Below, one piece after another: positions 2,024 to 24,911 of a stretch of DNA of 24,911 nucleotides; the first letter of the stretch is position 1, and each line of letters begins with the position of its first letter. The stretch covers positions 1 to 24,911 of the IMG/VR virus record IMGVR_UViG_3300025282_000226, one strand, 5' to 3'. Position numbers and translations under genes: made by a program. The stretch is from a virus. Below the pieces are notes generated by a model. It did no database searches, had not been told where the DNA came from, and saw only the letters and a program-made list of their open reading frames with translations.

Positions 2024-3556
2024 TTATTCATCCATATATGTTGCGCTATCGAGTGCGCCAGTGGTGACTGTCACCTTAAAATACCAATCGCCGGGTATTA
2101 TAAAAAAGCACGGCACTTGGTGAGCCGCAGAATTTGCGGCTACGTCAATAAACGGGTTTAGCAAAGTGGTACCAGGTGGACTACTTGCTCCGGCAGTAAC
2201 GGAATATTGATTTTCGCCCGTACTAGCACCGGCGATACGGACGTTGATCCTTCTCCACTTACTACCAACTTGATAAACCGTGCCAGCATTGATCGAGTAC
2301 ACCGCCCAAGTACCACTCTCGCCAGCCGTACCAACTGATAAAGTTCCTGTCTCATCTGGTAGTGTCCACGTTCTATCTGCCGATGCAGCGTGGGTAAACG
2401 TGCCTTGGAATCCGCTACCAGCAGTAGAGGCAAATCTATATTTTGTTTCTGCTGCTCTACCAGCTACACGCAGTAAAAGGTCCACATAGGTATCTTCTGA
2501 ACCAGAGCCAATGTCTGTGGCAGCAAAATCAAGACGACCAAGTACGCAGGGATTCTCATCAGCACTTTCAGCATCGAACTGAATACCCGTGCCAATACCA
2601 GCAGCAGGGGTTCCACTGGTTACGCTTCGTAGAATAGCAGCAACATCTACTGCATCGGTGCGTGAATCTGTTTCGCTCACGATTAGCTGTGAACCAGTGA
2701 TTGTAGTAGTACCGTCTGATGCTACCTTGAATCGTTCTGCTGCTGTTGCACCAGCTTCTCGAAGGAATATCTTAAAATCCGAATCCTCTGCACCAGCCCC
2801 TTTGTCTGAAAATGAAAATTGTAAACTACCTAGCACAGACGGATTTTCATCTGCGCTCTCGGCATCAAACTGGATTCCAGTACCTATACCCGTATCTGGC
2901 GTGCCAGATGTAACCGAGCGTAGAATAGCTGCTATGTCCACGGCATCTGTCCTACTATCAGTTTCGCTTACTATTAATTGCGAACCAGTAATTGTGGTTG
3001 TACCGTCAGATGCAATCCTGAATCTCTCGGCAGCAGTAGCACCGCCTTCCCGTAAGAACACTAGAAAATCAGAATCTTCCGCACCGGCCCCCTTATCGGT
3101 AAACAGGAATTGCAATGAACCAAGAACTGATGGATTTTCGTTTGCCGATTCTGCATCAAATTGTAATCCAGTTCCAATCCCATCAGCGGGTGTGCCACTC
3201 GTAGTGGACCTCAAGATTGCTGCTATATCTACTGTATTGGTACGGCTATCTTCTGGTGCTGCTGCAATAACTGCTTGTGCGCCAAATTCAGCAGCCATTG
3301 AACCGCCTGTAGTAATGTTCAGCGTATCGGCCCCACTGAAATATATTCCAGTATTGCTGTCACCGTTTGGATTAATGGAAGGATCACTTACCGAACCGGC
3401 ATTAATATCGTCTACACGATTATTATCAAGATCAAGAGTGCCAGTTAGAGGTGAAACCAACGACAATCCATTGTTAATAATGTTATTAAATTCTGCGTTA
3501 AGATCACTAGCTGTAAGGACTTCCGCAGTCCATGTTTTTACCCGACTTAAAGCCAT
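2024..3556 (-). CDS. Tail-fibre-like structural protein with three 97-residue repeats
   Basis: 510 aa. The N-terminus (MALSRVKTWTAEVLTASDLN) resembles the virion-attachment start of many phage fibre-type proteins. Residues 104-200, 201-297 and 298-~378 are tandem repeats with an exact 97-residue period, each opening with SRT(N/D)xVD(I/V)AAILRS. Repeats 1 and 2 are nearly identical, while the third decays after about 45 residues. The repeats are Gly/Ser/Thr/Asp-rich and beta-predicted. The C-terminal ~130 residues (from TWTLPDETGTLSV) form a distinct domain that may be the receptor-binding or trimerisation tip. The segment TWTLPDxxGTL is common in phage tail-fibre and collar proteins. SD AAGGA precedes the ATG. 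Host-surface recognition is the likely role. Confidence 0.8.
   Translation of the reverse strand: MALSRVKTWTAEVLTASDLNAEFNNIINNGLSLVSPLTGTLDLDNNRVDDINAGSVSDPSINPNGDSNTGIYFSGADTLNITTGGSMAAEFGAQAVIAAAPEDSRTNTVDIAAILRSTTSGTPADGIGTGLQFDAESANENPSVLGSLQFLFTDKGAGAEDSDFLVFLREGGATAAERFRIASDGTTTITGSQLIVSETDSRTDAVDIAAILRSVTSGTPDTGIGTGIQFDAESADENPSVLGSLQFSFSDKGAGAEDSDFKIFLREAGATAAERFKVASDGTTTITGSQLIVSETDSRTDAVDVAAILRSVTSGTPAAGIGTGIQFDAESADENPCVLGRLDFAATDIGSGSEDTYVDLLLRVAGRAAETKYRFASTAGSGFQGTFTHAASADRTWTLPDETGTLSVGTAGESGTWAVYSINAGTVYQVGSKWRRINVRIAGASTGENQYSVTAGASSPPGTTLLNPFIDVAANSAAHQVPCFFIIPGDWYFKVTVTTGALDSATYMDE
2423..3247 (-). repeat. Three tandem ~291-bp coding repeats in the fibre-like gene
   Basis: The protein repeat (97 residues, 291 bp) occurs at about 2957-3247, 2666-2956 and 2423-2665 (partial). 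Protein identity between copies 1 and 2 is very high, for example an ITGSQLIVSETDSRT block shared by both junctions. The DNA differs at many third codon positions, so this is not a recent copy. The third copy keeps the first ~45 residues and then diverges. Confidence 0.85.
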
Positions 3557-10196: not shown

Positions 10197-10451
10197 TTAC
10201 CACACCTTCCACCACGGGTCTTTTTTGTCCTCTTGTTTAGATGGTTTTTTAGAACGGAAATAAGATCGTTGTCCTGGAATTATTCCCTGATCTAATAGTT
10301 CTTGCCTTTCCTCTCTTGTCAAAGGACGATCTCGCTCACGCTCCCCTTCTTTGTCCTTAGAAGCGGATTCAACCTTATCCTCAGTTTGAGGATAATCTTT
10401 AGCGGGTGAATGGTGCTTAACTGTACGTCCTAAGAATGTTTCTTTTTTCAC
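10197..10451 (-). CDS. Small charged protein, paralogue of the upstream gene
   Basis: 84 aa. It starts at GTG 10451, one base after the upstream TAG, with AAGG 8 nt before. Its first 21 residues (KKETFLGRTVKHHSPAKDYP after the start) match those of the upstream gene with only three substitutions. The rest differs: an acidic/basic low-complexity linker, LTREERQELLDQGIIPGQ, then a tail ending DPWWKVW. It is probably a disordered tether with a conserved N-terminal docking motif. No function is known. Confidence 0.7.
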   Translation of the reverse strand: MKKETFLGRTVKHHSPAKDYPQTEDKVESASKDKEGERERDRPLTREERQELLDQGIIPGQRSYFRSKKPSKQEDKKDPWWKVW

Positions 10452-10452
10452 G

Positions 10453-10704
10453 CTAAGTGCCTTGCATTCCCAACTTATGCTGCTCTAGTCTTTCCCGATA
10501 TTTCCTGTCCTGTTCTATTTTTTCACGCAATAGTCTTTCTCGCTCTATTTCCAGCCTTTTTCGTTCTAACAATCTTTGTTCTTCGGGTGTTAAATTATCT
10601 GGACGGTGTTTCCATATAGGATAATTCCTAGATGTACTGCGAGGATAATCCCTGGCTGGTGAATGGTGTTTAACAGGACGACCTAAAAATGATTCTTTTT
10701 TCAT
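10453..10704 (-). CDS. Small charged coiled-coil protein, paralogue of the downstream gene
   Basis: 83 aa from ATG 10704. A GTG at 10719 is also in frame, but the ATG has AAGG ~8 nt upstream and aligns exactly with the start of the paralogue. The N-terminal motif is KKESFLGRPVKHHSPARDYP. It is followed by LTPEEQRLLERKRLEIERER and further Arg/Glu-rich helix, an uninterrupted charged alpha-helix or coiled coil. It lies directly downstream of the major capsid gene in transcription order, which suggests a capsid-related role. Confidence 0.7.
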   Translation of the reverse strand: MKKESFLGRPVKHHSPARDYPRSTSRNYPIWKHRPDNLTPEEQRLLERKRLEIERERLLREKIEQDRKYRERLEQHKLGMQGT

Positions 10705-10748
10705 ATTCTTCGCCTTCACTCAAGTATTCTTGTCTCAGATAAAGCATC

Positions 10749-20336: not shown

Positions 20337-20519
20337 TTATTTTGTTATTTTATGCCAATGGTCTTGCCATTTTTTTAATTCCCTTAGATGAGTCTCTAGC
20401 CGTTTAGGATTTAAACGAACCCCCATTTTCTTCCAGGCTGCCAAGATTCTTTTAATGACAGCTAAATCAATAACCTCAATGCTGTTGGTAGATAGAGATT
20501 GAAAGCTATCCTGAATCAT
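20337..20519 (-). CDS. Small helical protein coupled to the zinc-ribbon gene
   Basis: 60 aa, not recognised. Helical and basic: IEVIDLAVIKRILAAWKKMG, then NPKRLETHLRELKKWQDHWHK. The Trp/Lys/His-rich amphipathic helices suggest protein or DNA binding. Its ATG lies inside the last codons of the zinc-ribbon gene (14-nt overlap), so the pair is translated together. It is too small for a usual terminase small subunit, although it is upstream of terL in the same orientation. Confidence 0.55.
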   Translation of the reverse strand: MIQDSFQSLSTNSIEVIDLAVIKRILAAWKKMGVRLNPKRLETHLRELKKWQDHWHKITK

Positions 20520-20661
20520 TTGCGTCTATACCTAGATAACCGCCTAGAATCTCGTTACAGGATTCGAAATATCCACAGCCTTCCCTAGTACAGAGTAACT
20601 GGCAGTGTCTTTCAATCATGTGAGTACCACATACAGGACAAATAGTATTAACTTCTATCAA
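20506..20661 (-). CDS. Six-cysteine zinc-ribbon microprotein
   Basis: 51 aa from TTG 20661 to TAG 20506. A G-rich SD (ACGGGGGT) lies 7 nt upstream. Cysteines fall at 8, 11, 20, 24, 29 and 35 in the pattern CPVCG...HCQLLCTREGCGYFESC, as in zinc ribbons of transcription or topoisomerase accessory domains. Six cysteines in 28 residues could hold one Zn with spares, or a binuclear site. Its 3' end overlaps the 60-aa gene. Function unknown; nucleic-acid binding is likely. The TTG start is the only one that keeps the first CxxC with an SD. Confidence 0.6.
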   Translation of the reverse strand: MIEVNTICPVCGTHMIERHCQLLCTREGCGYFESCNEILGGYLGIDANDSG

Positions 20662-20695: not shown

Positions 20696-20857
20696 AGAAT
20701 GAACTTTTATTGAGTAGCCTATACCAAAGTACCCCTTTTTTGTTTTCATGGTGTGTGAGTAGGAACCCTATTGTTTCGTATATATAAGCTTTTATACCAT
20801 CGTGGTGTATGGCTGGGAACCATATAGTATGCCCCAAGGGCAGCCTGCCCATATTAG

Positions 20858-20934
20858 TATTATTATTATTATTATTATTATTATGATTATTATTATGATG
20901 ATTACTATCATTATTATTATTATTACTATCATTG
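20858..20934. repeat. (TAT)9 microsatellite with degenerate continuation
   Basis: Nine perfect TAT units occupy 20858-20884. Degenerate ATT/ATG/ATC triplets follow to about 20934, with TTACTATCATT repeated. It is almost pure A+T, non-coding and easily melted. Such triplet runs are uncommon in compact phage genomes. Confidence 0.8.
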
Positions 20935-21049
20935 TGTCAAGCCCTACCCTATCTATAGCAAGCTCCGCCACCCTACCTTGATAGTCGGATAATATTACAC
21001 CCCACCCCCACCTCTTTAAAAAATAATAAAAAATAATTGCAATAAACGG

Positions 21050-21135: not shown

Positions 21136-21207
21136 ATGAGGAGACACTATGACAATGAACAAACGCTTAACAATCTACGAAATAAAAAGGCGGACCGAAG
21201 AGACTAA
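21136..21207 (+). CDS. Short leader ORF overlapping the next gene's start
   Basis: ATG at 21136 has a strong SD (AGGGGGAG) 7 nt upstream and encodes 23 residues, rich in Arg, Asn and Asp (MRRHYDNEQTLNNLRNKKAD...), ending at TAA 21207. The next gene's SD and ATG (21149) lie inside it in another frame. It could be a leader peptide that opens or competes for the downstream start. Alternatively the upstream SD is just a standby site. Confidence 0.35.
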   Translation: MRRHYDNEQTLNNLRNKKADRRD

Positions 21208-21448
21208 CCCGTACTTTTTCAGCAGGAAAACCATGAAGTTCTTCGGGCAAACACTGCGAGACTTTCGTATCCGCAGGGAGGCAGACGGGCGCTATCGTAT
21301 AGAGGCTCCTACCTATCGGGGTCCGGATAAACTAAATAGACCAACGGTCAGATACTACAACCCATCAACCAATGATCTGGATCTGGAAGAATGGGAAGAT
21401 TTAAAGACGCTCTTGGAGAGTAGCTATCAAAGGGGGTCACATATATGA
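21149..21448 (+). CDS. Small conserved-type phage accessory protein, 99 aa
   Basis: The segment EETNPYFFSRKTMKFFGQTL, followed by RDFRIRREADGRYRIEAPTY and VRYYNPSTNDL, matches a small family I recall from phages and mobile elements of diverse bacteria, with no assigned function. It is basic in the first half and acidic at the end (LEEWEDLKTLLES). SD GAGGAG lies ~5 nt before the ATG at 21149; a second ATG at 21155 is less well placed. It ends in an ATGA overlap with the next gene. Confidence 0.75.
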   Translation: MTMNKRLTIYEIKRRTEETNPYFFSRKTMKFFGQTLRDFRIRREADGRYRIEAPTYRGPDKLNRPTVRYYNPSTNDLDLEEWEDLKTLLESSYQRGSHI

Positions 21449-21609
21449 AAAAAGGCAAATCGACAACACAAACACACTACCAGCTTGAGGCAGACACAGT
21501 CGGGGCTACATTAGACGAACTAGAGGATTATATCAGTAGCAGTCAGGATGATGATGTGGTCGCATGGAGCGTATACCTGTCAGCCTGCGATCCTGATGGG
21601 TACCTCTAG
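21445..21609 (+). CDS. Small acidic protein, 54 aa
   Basis: ATG 21445 overlaps the upstream TGA (ATGA) and has SD AAAGGGGGT 7 nt before. A short basic, Thr/Gln-rich start is followed by an acidic helix (LEADTVGATLDELEDYISSS) and a C-terminal strand (DVVAWSVYLSACDPDGYL). Not recognised. The small size, charge and early-operon position are typical of phage accessory proteins acting on host targets, but nothing specific is shown. Confidence 0.65.
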   Translation: MKKGKSTTQTHYQLEADTVGATLDELEDYISSSQDDDVVAWSVYLSACDPDGYL

Positions 21610-21644
21610 TGGTAAATCCTTTTTTAAAGGCAACAATAATAGGT

Positions 21645-21680
21645 GAATAACAACGTAGCCCCGTCGGGCGAATAACAACG
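21645..21680 (+). repeat. Direct repeat GAATAACAACG with small hairpin
   Basis: GAATAACAACG occurs at 21645-21655 and 21670-21680, a 25-bp step. Between them GCCC and GGGC (21658-21669) can form a 4-bp stem with loop CGTC. The second copy ends at the SD (GGGAGGA) of the 108-aa gene. It may be a duplicated leader segment or a binding site. Confidence 0.45.
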
Positions 21681-21690
21681 GGAGGATAAA

Positions 21691-22017
21691 ATGGGAGAGA
21701 GAAATAGCTGGGTTATAGAAGGCAAACGCTACCGGACCGATACTGCTGACTACATAGCGGATCATCACCCTAGTGGTGTGTCAAGAAATGATTTTAATTT
21801 TTTTGAGGACACCCTATACCTATCGCCTAGAGGCAACTGGTTTATAGTCGGGTACGGTGGCGCAATGAGCCACTGGGCAACCTCTTGCGGTAACGGGCAT
21901 AGCAGTGGAGATGGATGCAGTCCACTCACTCCCAGTGAGGCTAGGGAAAAACTTGAGGAGTGGGGAGAGCAGGGCGCCCTAGAAGAGTACTTTGGCCAAG
22001 ACCTAGAGGACGCATAA
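21691..22017 (+). CDS. Conserved-type phage accessory protein, 108 aa
   Basis: SD GGGAGGA lies 5 nt before the ATG. The core EDTLYLSPRGNWFIVGYGGAMSHWATSCG plus GCSPLTPSEAREKLEEWGEQ follows a pattern I recall from many small phage and plasmid proteins: an aromatic-glycine strand set ending in a G-G-x-M-S turn, then P-L-x-x-x-E-A-R-x-x-L helix. No enzymatic activity is assigned to that family as far as I know. Here it has two cysteines (C66, C75) and an acidic C-terminus. Confidence 0.75.
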   Translation: MGERNSWVIEGKRYRTDTADYIADHHPSGVSRNDFNFFEDTLYLSPRGNWFIVGYGGAMSHWATSCGNGHSSGDGCSPLTPSEAREKLEEWGEQGALEEYFGQDLEDA

Positions 22018-22030
22018 ATACCAAGCAACA

Positions 22031-22055
22031 TAGGGGGGGGTATCACCCCCCCCTA
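22031..22055 (+). promoter_or_regulatory. Very stable G8/C8 intergenic hairpin
   Basis: TAGGGGGGGG (22031-22040), loop TATCA, then CCCCCCCCTA (22046-22055), form a perfect 10-bp stem. No U-run follows; the next gene's SD (AAAGGA) begins 7 nt later. It could be a strong transcription pause or attenuator, an mRNA-end protector, or a hotspot for slippage in the homopolymer tracts. Confidence 0.6.
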
Positions 22056-22074
22056 ACCAGAAAGGAATTATAAA

Positions 22075-22419
22075 ATGAAAATAACCAAGCGATATAAAAA
22101 CGATGAAAACCCAGTCCTTGCATTCGAGGAGAGCGACAAGGAAGAAATGATTAAGGTTGGCAGGAAAGCTGAAGACATATGGTATCAAAAGTGGGTTGAC
22201 CTTGGAAAAAATGATCATGGGTCTTGTTGTGGCGGTAAGGGTATCGAGGTCTACTTTAGAGGTAGGGGCCAAAGATACGCTAGACCAACACTTATTGCTG
22301 AATGCGACTGGATCCAAGGAAACGTGTCAGCGCAGGAATCTAAAGACGATGCCATAGGGTATCTTGCTGGCTACTTCGGGGGTGTCGAGGTTTGGTACAG
22401 CGATGGATACATGGACTAA
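22075..22419 (+). CDS. Hypothetical early protein, 114 aa
   Basis: Not recognised. It has a mixed alpha/beta sequence with a CCGGKGIEVYFRGRGQRYARP central strand-turn segment (C51, C52), LIAECDWIQGN, and a C-terminal ESKDDAIGYLAGYFGGVEVW block. No membrane or signal segment. SD AAAGGA lies 8 nt before the ATG, after the G8/C8 hairpin, so its expression may depend on that structure. Confidence 0.65.
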   Translation: MKITKRYKNDENPVLAFEESDKEEMIKVGRKAEDIWYQKWVDLGKNDHGSCCGGKGIEVYFRGRGQRYARPTLIAECDWIQGNVSAQESKDDAIGYLAGYFGGVEVWYSDGYMD

Positions 22420-22442
22420 ACAAGCCTATAAGGAGATAAATT

Positions 22443-22658
22443 ATGACTAGCTTCATTGAAATAGGTGAAAAAAATCAACTAAATATTGCTAAAAAATCGA
22501 TGGATTATAATTGCATCGGTACGGTCTTCCTTGGTATCAGTCACGCAAGGGCCATCGAAATTATCAAAAAGGCAACGGGAAAAACGGTCGAATTGCCGAC
22601 CGATTGTAGTTGCCAATATCTCCACGGCCACATAGACGTGATACGTATAACTGAGTAA
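22443..22658 (+). CDS. Small hypothetical protein, 71 aa
   Basis: Not recognised. The fold looks alpha/beta: IGTVFLGISHARAIEIIKKATG, then a Cys pair CSC near residue 55-57 and a C-terminal HGHIDVIRITE strand. SD AAGGAG lies ~7 nt before the ATG. It ends 11 nt before the methyltransferase gene, so it is probably co-expressed with it. Confidence 0.65.
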   Translation: MTSFIEIGEKNQLNIAKKSMDYNCIGTVFLGISHARAIEIIKKATGKTVELPTDCSCQYLHGHIDVIRITE

Positions 22659-22669
22659 AGGAGTTATCT

Positions 22670-23749
22670 ATGGATGATTTTGATTTACCAGTCATTATAC
22701 ATGGAGATGTAATGGATGGGCTGAAACAAATAGAAGCTAAATCAATACAAACGTGTGTCACATCCCCACCTTACTGGGGGTTGCGTGACTATGGTACTGG
22801 GATATGGGTTGGTGGTAAAGATGATTGCTCTCATTTCGGAGACTCAAAGAAGAGTAAGCATACCATAACAGGACACAAGAATAATCCTACAGTTGGTGAT
22901 GCAATTTATAAAACAATTTGTCCCAAGTGCGGAGCCAAGAGGATTGACAGCCAGCTTGGGCTTGAGGAAACACCAAAAGAATACATAGAGAATATGGTCA
23001 AGGTGTTTCGTGGAGTCCACAAAGTATTAAAGAATGACGGTACACTGTGGGTAAACATAGGAGATACCTATTGTGGTACTGGACACAAGGGAGATTTAGT
23101 AGACCCTATGTTTCCAGAGAGAAGAAACGCTCAGTCTACTGCCATTAATAATAAGATAGATGGAATCAAACCAAAGGATATGGTGGGGATTCCTTGGCTG
23201 TTGGCATTAGCATTGAGGAATGATGGATGGTATCTGAGACAGGACATCATATGGAATAAGCCTAACGCTATGCCTGAACCTGTCAAGGATAGATGTACTA
23301 AATCACATGAGTATATCTTTCTACTATCCAAGAGTAGACAGTATTACTTTGACTGTGAAGCATTGCAAGAACCAACAACAACATACGATAAGAATGTAAG
23401 AGACAGGGACAAGGGCAAAACTAACAAGACACCCGGTAGGAAAAGAATCTCTGGTCTTAAGACAAATGATTACGAGATGAAGAATAAAAGGGATGTCTGG
23501 AATATTAACCTTAAGCCATACAATGAAGCACACTTCGCAGTATTCCCACCAGAACTACCAGAGTTTTGTATCAAGGCAGGTAGTAAGGAAGGTGACAAGG
23601 TGCTTGATCCTTTCTGGGGTTCAGGCACTACTGGGGTTGTGGCTGTTAAGCTAGGAAGGAAGGTGATTGGAATAGAATTGAATAAAGATTACATAGATTT
23701 AAGTTTAAAAAGATTTAGTCAACGACACTTAGATTTATGGGGAAGATAA
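22670..23749 (+). CDS. DNA methyltransferase (N6-adenine or N4-cytosine), beta class
   Basis: 359 aa. TSPPYWG (31-37) is catalytic motif IV. DPFWGSGTTGVVAVKLGRKV (313-332) is the SAM-binding motif I. The order IV then I defines beta-class amino-methyltransferases. Between motif IV and the rest of the catalytic domain, C53-x-H55 and C84-x-x-C87 form a likely zinc knuckle, then LGLEETPKEYIENMV; this inserted module is common in phage methylases. IPWLLALALRNDGWYLRQDI and IIWNKPNAMPEPVKDR are typical later motifs. SD AAAGGAG lies 7 nt before the ATG. No matching restriction gene is nearby, so it is probably a solitary phage methylase protecting phage DNA. TSPPY does not decide between N6-A and N4-C. 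Confidence 0.9.
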   Translation: MDDFDLPVIIHGDVMDGLKQIEAKSIQTCVTSPPYWGLRDYGTGIWVGGKDDCSHFGDSKKSKHTITGHKNNPTVGDAIYKTICPKCGAKRIDSQLGLEETPKEYIENMVKVFRGVHKVLKNDGTLWVNIGDTYCGTGHKGDLVDPMFPERRNAQSTAINNKIDGIKPKDMVGIPWLLALALRNDGWYLRQDIIWNKPNAMPEPVKDRCTKSHEYIFLLSKSRQYYFDCEALQEPTTTYDKNVRDRDKGKTNKTPGRKRISGLKTNDYEMKNKRDVWNINLKPYNEAHFAVFPPELPEFCIKAGSKEGDKVLDPFWGSGTTGVVAVKLGRKVIGIELNKDYIDLSLKRFSQRHLDLWGR

Positions 23750-23770
23750 GTGTAACACTAGGGGGATAAT

Positions 23771-23998
23771 ATGGACCGGCTAGAAGAGCTATCTATAAAG
23801 TTAATGGCAGACTTAGAACGCAGACGCAGTATCCCTACCCCAGGCTGTATCTCAGACCAACAACTGATCGACTACTATATGGGTGATCTTGTGCATAACG
23901 AGTGGGAACTCATAGACCAGCACCTCGCAAGGTGTTTAACCTGTATGTACGCTATGGTCATTAATAGTAATCAAAGCTATAACGAGAAGTCAGGCTAG
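23771..23998 (+). CDS. ZAS-type zinc-finger protein, anti-sigma-like
   Basis: 75 aa. Residues 26-60 match the zinc-binding anti-sigma (zf-HC2/ZAS) domain: C26, then LIDYYMGDL, then H51-x3-C55-x2-C58 in QHLARCLTC. The L-x-x-Y-x-x-G-(D/E)-L element and the HxxxCxxC signature are both present. In anti-sigma factors this fold clamps an ECF-type sigma factor. Cellular ones usually continue into a membrane helix; this protein is soluble and ends soon after the domain. No sigma gene is visible, so a host sigma factor would be the target (inference). It starts with an AGGGGGAT SD, 21 nt after the methyltransferase, and its 3' end overlaps the convergent gene by 9 nt. Confidence 0.7.
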   Translation: MDRLEELSIKLMADLERRRSIPTPGCISDQQLIDYYMGDLVHNEWELIDQHLARCLTCMYAMVINSNQSYNEKSG

Positions 23999-24337
23999 CT
24001 TATAGTTTTTTGACCACGACCGGATACGGCGGGTCGGCCTCGGCCCGTGGTATTTTGGACTTGCCAATCGTTTTTGTGCCTTGAGCAATCCAGCCCTAAT
24101 CCAATGAGGATCTAAACTGAGGTGGTCGCAAACGGTGTGAAATGAAACGACCCACCAGGACTCGTCTGACCACAGCCACTTTTCAGCTTGACGCTGAAAA
24201 TTTTGCCCGTATTTGCCTTTGCCATATAGATATGTCCATATAGCATCGTCTAAAACTGCCAATAGCAAATGTTGCTCCGGCAATAGTGGTCTAGCCTCCG
24301 CCTCTTGGCTATGAAATTCTTTTCGAATTTCAATCAT
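23990..24337 (-). CDS. Helical protein with possible helix-turn-helix, 115 aa
   Basis: Not firmly named. LLLAVLDDAIWTYLYGKGKY, FQRQAEKWLWSDESWWVVSF, then HTVCDHLSLDPHWIRAGLLK fit a small all-helical family I recall from phages and phage-rich genomic islands. The last segment (V-C-x-x-L-x-L-D-P-x-x-I-R-x-x-L) reads as a helix-turn-helix, and the tail (RPTRRIRSWSKNYK) is strongly basic. DNA binding is likely; regulation of the rightward or leftward genes is plausible. SD GAGG lies 7 nt before the ATG. It converges on and overlaps the anti-sigma-like gene at their 3' ends. Confidence 0.65.
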   Translation of the reverse strand: MIEIRKEFHSQEAEARPLLPEQHLLLAVLDDAIWTYLYGKGKYGQNFQRQAEKWLWSDESWWVVSFHTVCDHLSLDPHWIRAGLLKAQKRLASPKYHGPRPTRRIRSWSKNYKLA

Positions 24338-24352
24338 AATTCAGCCTCACCC

Positions 24353-24607
24353 CTACTTCCACGATTTGATTTTAACTTTTTTCTTGGGCTTCTTTTTTTT
24401 CCTCTGCTCTCTAAATCTCTCTGTTAGATAATCGTCCCGATAGGAAGCGAGGAACGTCCCGTCTTTGCTGGCCCAGATTCTGTGGAGGTGAATTAATCCA
24501 CAGTCACAGCATGACGTGTAATAGATCCCAGAGTCTGAGATCGGCTGGATATCACCATTTCTCATCTGTTTAATTTTCAGATGCGGCATGAAAATTTCAT
24601 TATTCAT
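24353..24607 (-). CDS. CCDC-motif small phage protein with Lys-rich tail
   Basis: 84 aa. TSCCDCGLIHLHRI (C33, C34, C36, H40/H42) is a motif I recall from many small phage proteins and is likely metal-binding. The C-terminus is a long basic tail (KKKKPKKKVKIKSWK), suggesting nucleic-acid contact. SD is the G7 run four bases before the ATG. It overlaps the upstream nuclease gene by 8 nt. Confidence 0.7.
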   Translation of the reverse strand: MNNEIFMPHLKIKQMRNGDIQPISDSGIYYTSCCDCGLIHLHRIWASKDGTFLASYRDDYLTERFREQRKKKKPKKKVKIKSWK

Positions 24608-24911
24608 TTTCCCCCCCGTGCAAATCTAACCAGGCAGCTTGATCTAGCACAAAATATCTCTGTGTTTTTTGCCCTCGTTTGGATACGCAAAATACTGTCA
24701 GGGGGACTTTAGCGGGTGGGCAATTAGTCCTAGCCTGGGCAACCGCCTCTTGTAACCAGGATGGAAAGCTCTTACGGTGTTTAACCTCTACCGCAAATAG
24801 ATCGTGAGATACGTCAGGCTGACCGTATCCGCTATTAGGAATTCGCTTTGATCCCTTCCCTAGTAAAACTGCTACTTGCCTCTCGTGCACTTTCCAATTT
24901 GATGAAGATCC
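24600..24911 (-). CDS. PD-(D/E)XK nuclease, Holliday-junction-resolvase-like, 5' end cut off
   Basis: The frame is open to the right edge, so the start is outside the window; the GTG at 24890 is only an internal possibility. Upstream codons (GSSSNWKVHERQVAVLLG) look like the normal N-terminal helix of the family. Residues RIPNSGYGQPDVSHD, AVEVKHRKS and WLQEAVAQA give PD-x8-ExK catalytic spacing followed by the usual helix. Such small nucleases in phages resolve branched DNA before packaging. Alternatives include a VRR-NUC-type repair nuclease. Confidence 0.7.
   Translation of the reverse strand, partial: GSSSNWKVHERQVAVLLGKGSKRIPNSGYGQPDVSHDLFAVEVKHRKSFPSWLQEAVAQARTNCPPAKVPLTVFCVSKRGQKTQRYFVLDQAAWLDLHGGENE

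Follow-up and report, generated by a model that had tools for sequence, protein, structure and literature searches.

The open reading frame at positions 23771 to 23998 (+ strand) of the window, by which we mean the whole 24,911-nucleotide stretch that was analyzed, is a real, conserved coding gene, and its 75-residue product bears a weak but above-chance sequence resemblance to the ZAS/zf-HC2 zinc core found in anti-sigma factors. We regard the protein as a phage form of the zinc anti-sigma fold that has diverged and been truncated, rather than as a proven anti-sigma factor. The explanation that we prefer, at a probability of roughly 0.4, is that it would be a small soluble ZAS-type protein that captures a host sigma factor and mutes a stress regulon.

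A conserved coding gene behind a methyltransferase

The window, an IMG/VR virus record of 24.9 kb, contains the terminase, portal, and capsid genes of a tailed phage. The ZAS-like frame is the last gene of a small plus-strand cluster that lies apart from the structural genes, and its product, MDRLEELSIKLMADLERRRSIPTPGCISDQQLIDYYMGDLVHNEWELIDQHLARCLTCMYAMVINSNQSYNEKSG, contains four putative zinc ligands arranged as C26-x24-H51-x3-C55-x2-C58, together with the motif L32-x2-Y35-x2-G38-D39-L40. Coordinates, strand, length, ligands, and the L-x-x-Y-x-x-G-D-L pattern are exactly those given by the first-pass annotation. The features of the locus are as follows:

21149 to 22658 (+): remainder of the plus-strand cluster, a DUF7447 protein and four small unknown ORFs
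22670 to 23749 (+): N6/N4 DNA methyltransferase, directly upstream of the ZAS-like gene
23760 to 23765 (+): Shine-Dalgarno-like AGGGGG, 5' of the ATG at 23771 (sequence)
23771 to 23998 (+): ZAS/zf-HC2-like zinc-core ORF, 75 residues (sequence, selection, profile, and model)
23774 to 23827 (+): predicted N-terminal helix, residues 2 to 19, outside the zinc core (AF2 model)
23846 to 23848 (+): C26 codon; the residue is the putative first zinc ligand and aligns with ChrR His6
23855 to 23881 (+): predicted core helix 1, residues 29 to 37, which contains L32 and Y35
23921 to 23944 (+): H51-x3-C55-x2-C58, three putative zinc ligands (ChrR 31, 35, and 38)
23990 to 24911 (-): opposing cluster, including a RusA-like resolvase, converging on the ZAS-like gene

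The upstream methyltransferase gene matches PF01555 in Pfam with an E value of 7.7e-56, and 21 bases separate its stop from the start of the ZAS-like frame. At its 3' end, the frame overlaps the opposing minus-strand gene by 9 bases. The highest 19-residue Kyte-Doolittle mean in the protein is 0.88, far below the membrane-helix level, so the earlier proposal that the protein is soluble holds. The first-pass annotation also spoke of an early-type operon, a label that we can only infer from the position of the cluster apart from the structural genes.

Comparison with L004, a contig from another sample, indicated that the frame is translated and under purifying selection: 5 of its 228 bases are changed, and every one of the five changes is synonymous (one is TTA to CTA, and the other four fall at third positions), an outcome with a chance probability of 0.00036. 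Four other IMG/VR contigs, L004 among them, are 99.85 to 99.98% identical to the window. The codon usage of the frame is near the bottom of the range for this phage (log-odds of -0.03, against a mean of 0.25 for its real genes) and is not separable from that of wrong frames, as would suit a frame that is not translated at all. That reading is nonetheless highly improbable and largely refuted, given the five synonymous substitutions, the ribosome site before the ATG, and the position right behind the methyltransferase gene in what is the sole stop-free frame there.

Several other features of the window were recorded. Nearly all differences between the window and L004 fall into two short clusters, at 21735 to 21762 and 23766 to 23989; since the DNA beside the second cluster is otherwise nearly identical, the clustering suggests recombination with a related phage. 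A long low-complexity run of the ATT/ATA type (20792 to 20981), which reads as poly-isoleucine on both strands, sits between the structural genes and the plus-strand cluster, and a perfect G-run/C-run inverted repeat, TAGGGGGGGGTGATACCCCCCCCTA, lies between two small genes at 22031 to 22055. On the minus strand, two adjacent small ORFs at 10197 to 10719 share the segment E-(S/T)-F-L-G-R-(P/T)-V-K-H-H-S-P-A-(R/K)-D-Y-P, an apparent tandem duplication, and a 51-residue ORF at 20506 to 20661 has a zinc-ribbon-like C-x2-C ... C-x4-C pattern and no match in Pfam. A tail-fibre-like protein at 2024 to 3556 contains long internal repeats (DSRTDAVDIAAILRSVTSGTP...).

Resemblance to the zinc core of anti-sigma factors

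Pfam, PHROGs, and NCBIfam returned no zf-HC2 match for the protein. PF13490 gave no match to it at an E value of 1 or below, nor to anything in the whole record at 10 or below, and the protein does not reach the curated cutoff of that family, which is 22.2 bits. A weak match to UBZ_FAAP20 spans 9 residues and was set aside as noise. We also built a zf-HC2 profile from domains collected in six bacterial genomes, the final version of which has 22 rows that each match PF13490 individually. With this profile the phage protein scored 14.4 bits, and hhalign gave the pair a probability of 92%. Among 200,000 random 75-mers of viral-frame composition, not one reached 14 bits. With the first version of the profile, 1 of 20,000 composition shuffles of the protein scored as high as the protein itself, and with another earlier version none of 20,000 shuffles of its residues did; with earlier versions it also ranked first among 6,238 open frames in viral loci (E value of about 0.01). 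The weight of this above-chance homology is lessened because the candidate had been picked from a large scan for matching in the first place.

When the PDB was searched with the final profile, DdvA, 3hug, ChrR, and RsiW came first in that order, followed by RsrA. The scores of RsiW (19.2 bits) and RsrA (16.4 bits) are similarly low to that of the phage protein, and, as a true anti-sigma factor such as RsrA obtains only 16.4 bits, a low score is compatible with a real member of this group. The ligands C26, H51, C55, and C58 form the C/H...H-x3-C-x2-C pattern with the spacing of the family; the distance from the first to the second is 25, as in ChrR and several of the bacterial rows, where the family range is 24 to 26. 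A motif derived from the part of the protein from Y35 on matched six bacterial ORFs, all of them zf-HC2-like.

An AF2 model made from the single sequence had low confidence and found no structural match in the PDB, whereas a model guided by an alignment with six bacterial zf-HC2 proteins matches the three-helix zinc bundle of ChrR and RsiW. In the guided model, pLDDT values are 81 to 84 over residues 31 to 60, and helices are predicted at residues 2 to 19, 29 to 37, 42 to 54, and 56 to 74. Foldseek placed RsiW (5wuq; probability, 0.80) first and ChrR (2q1z) next, with weak E values of 1.5 and 2.5. VIA-align gave a Z score of 7.2 for ChrR (54 aligned residues; root mean square deviation [rmsd], 2.5) and 5.2 for RsiW (52 aligned; rmsd, 1.6), while the next unrelated entry had 2.5. 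Because Z scores below 8 can arise from common helical arrangements and because the zf-HC2 alignment steered the model, we take the structural match as support rather than as independent proof. A ZAS-type zinc-core fold is probable. The N-terminal helix is moderately amphipathic, with a hydrophobic moment of 0.504 that is not significant, as 9% of shuffles equal it.

The match to ChrR of Rhodobacter sphaeroides (2q1z/2z2s) is gapless: residues 22 to 75 of the model fall on ChrR residues 2 to 55 with a constant shift of 20. In this register C26, H51, C55, and C58 fall on ChrR positions 6, 31, 35, and 38. The PDB sequence has H, H, C, and C at these positions, which we take to be the zinc ligands of ChrR, so that C26 replaces H6. 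The pairs L32/L12, Y35/Y15, G38/G18, and L40/L20 (phage/ChrR) match, and L32 of ChrR is also kept, yet identity in the core is limited to 10 of 40 residues. The resemblance to ZAS/zf-HC2 claimed by the first-pass annotation is thus upheld by the home-made profile, the gapless ChrR match, and the guided model, but not by the curated libraries. Its description as a complete anti-sigma signature went too far: all of the 35-residue zinc core is present, but helix 4, which should follow at the C terminus, is absent. The protein stops where helix 3 ends, with only 17 residues after C58, and the last residue of the model corresponds to ChrR residue 55 or RsiW residue 54.

Distribution and relatives

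A tblastn search with the 75-residue protein found no homologue in phage and plasmid records, and none turned up in 84,980 bacterial and archaeal genomes, in a search that reached close relatives only. In IMG/VR, both the search for relatives and DNA motif scans recovered only copies of the same phage; one further motif-scan match, L089, was rejected for its in-frame stop codons. A strict cell-like YxDG ZAS motif, of a kind that would miss most real members, gave zero matches in IMG/VR. Divergent homologues in which the conservation of the ligands could be followed were therefore not among the phage, plasmid, bacterial, and IMG/VR sequences searched. Methyltransferases with 71 to 84% identity to the upstream gene occur in other phages, in records that are fragments, and have no ZAS-like gene beside them (the profile search in these records ran without a positive control). 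We therefore rejected an obligate partnership between the protein and the methyltransferase. The gene, which the first-pass annotation proposed to look for in related phages, thus appeared only in copies of this phage among the sequences searched.

The zf-HC2 consensus and RsiW were also used as tblastn queries against phage records. The best match, MT839839, carries an ECF sigma factor and a membrane anti-sigma factor as a pair on an unverified fecal contig that is most likely bacterial DNA, and MT838715 looks similar; neither was accepted. Both entries, MT839839.1 (L120, 2 to 1302) and MT838715.1 (L121), are unverified records named "Bacteriophage sp." in which a sigma gene is followed by an anti-sigma-like gene, and both sequences look like bacterial DNA. 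Neither 50,697 phage records nor the open-licence literature searched yielded a convincing phage ZAS protein, and the fold alone would for that reason be new for phages.

Possible function and comparison with known systems

Two other readings of the protein have to be weighed against sigma capture. The four-ligand spacing could be a coincidence in a small orphan phage protein that possibly binds zinc through another fold. For a score of 14.4 bits the chance expectation in 177,635 sequences is about 0.27, false matches in the PDB reach the same value (bL32m), and the first-stage scan presumably covered so many genes that one chance match could surface; the silence of the curated libraries and of the unguided model fits as well. 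However, C26 is correctly placed though it lies outside the stretch scored by the profile, and it is thus partly independent evidence, the helix pattern and hydrophobic positions agree with ChrR, and random 75-mers did not reach such scores. We consider coincidence unlikely.

Nearly as probable as a miniature anti-sigma protein, though itself tentative, is a docking domain with another target. Here the ZAS/zf-HC2 fold would serve as a general protein-docking module whose zinc core and N-terminal helix bind some other partner, for example RNA polymerase itself, a regulator of the host, or a protein of the phage. A single genome can encode many zf-HC2 domains (two genomes gave 19 and 16 matches, in both long and short open frames), so not all of them need be sigma inhibitors; helix 4, the main contact to sigma domain 2, is absent, and no sigma gene was recognized nearby. 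Against this stands the finding that the well-scoring solved structures under the zf-HC2 profile are anti-sigma factors, with the exception of 8rot, a CHAT-domain protein that shares the DdvA domain, and with the caveat that 3hug_B is named in the PDB only as a conserved membrane protein.

Capture of a host sigma factor, our preferred reading, would combine a fold like the ChrR/RsiW core with binding to a host sigma factor. With helix 4 absent, such capture is a plausible hypothesis and cannot be read from the sequence. The protein would form a three-helix, zinc-stabilized ZAS-type bundle held by C26, H51, C55, and C58, with an extra helix in front. Core helix 1 would dock onto domain 4 of the sigma factor; the missing helix 4 may have its substitute in the N-terminal helix, unless the domain 2 contact is absent altogether. 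The target would be a host sigma factor, most likely of the ECF type, which would be kept off RNA polymerase so that a host stress regulon is muted during infection. We infer sigma binding, the replacement arm, and early expression alike. A more specific version, in which a rearranged minimal ZAS protein has its sigma-2 arm moved from the C terminus to the N terminus, captures a host ECF sigma factor, and silences an envelope or oxidative stress response, seems rather unlikely as a whole. If that version is true, no phage protein before this one would, as far as we have found, have been shown to use the ZAS fold.

Class I anti-sigma factors (ASDI/ZAS) contact sigma domain 4 with helix 1, while helix 4, which comes after a flexible linker, blocks the face with which sigma domain 2 binds RNA polymerase (PMC7406223; PMC4598750), and helix 4 holds 12 of the 14 strongest sigma-contact couplings (PMC7406223). 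The phage protein differs from this class in lacking helix 4 and in having an extra helix before the core. Class I factors are encoded beside their own sigma factor, and no sigma factor gene was recognized among the window proteins scanned with Pfam, PHROGs, and NCBIfam; with a host sigma factor as the target, such linkage would not be required. With Pfam PF13490 the protein has in common the four ligands, their spacing, and the Y..G.L motif, but M37 takes the place of the usual acidic residue of YxDG, the D before G. Since some anti-sigma groups have hydrophobic residues at the helix 1 contact (PMC7406223), this change is not disqualifying.

RsrA of Streptomyces (5frf) and RsiW of Bacillus (5wuq) have the H-x3-C-x2-C zinc core in common with the phage protein. 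They differ from it in that the cell also encodes their partner sigma factor and in that both proteins extend past the bundle. RsiW is, moreover, a membrane-bound protein. RsrA is a redox switch with further cysteines (PMC4598750). In zinc anti-sigma factors, H-x3-C-x2-C is accompanied by a fourth ligand that is C or H (PMC4598750). The phage protein lacks two parts of ChrR, helix 4 and a second domain at the C terminus, and ChrR controls a sigma factor of its own (PMC4598750).

T4 AsiA and Xp10 P7, of which the latter displaces sigma, are likewise small and encoded by phages, and they target the sigma factor or RNA polymerase of the host, but they are functional analogues only, and we know of no ZAS fold in either. 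Known phage anti-sigma proteins mostly act on the primary sigma factor. AsiA and P7 affect transcription that depends on the primary sigma factor (PMC2988021; PMC5053324). A phage version of the fold with which bacteria control ECF sigma factors would imply that phages are able to target particular stress regulons.
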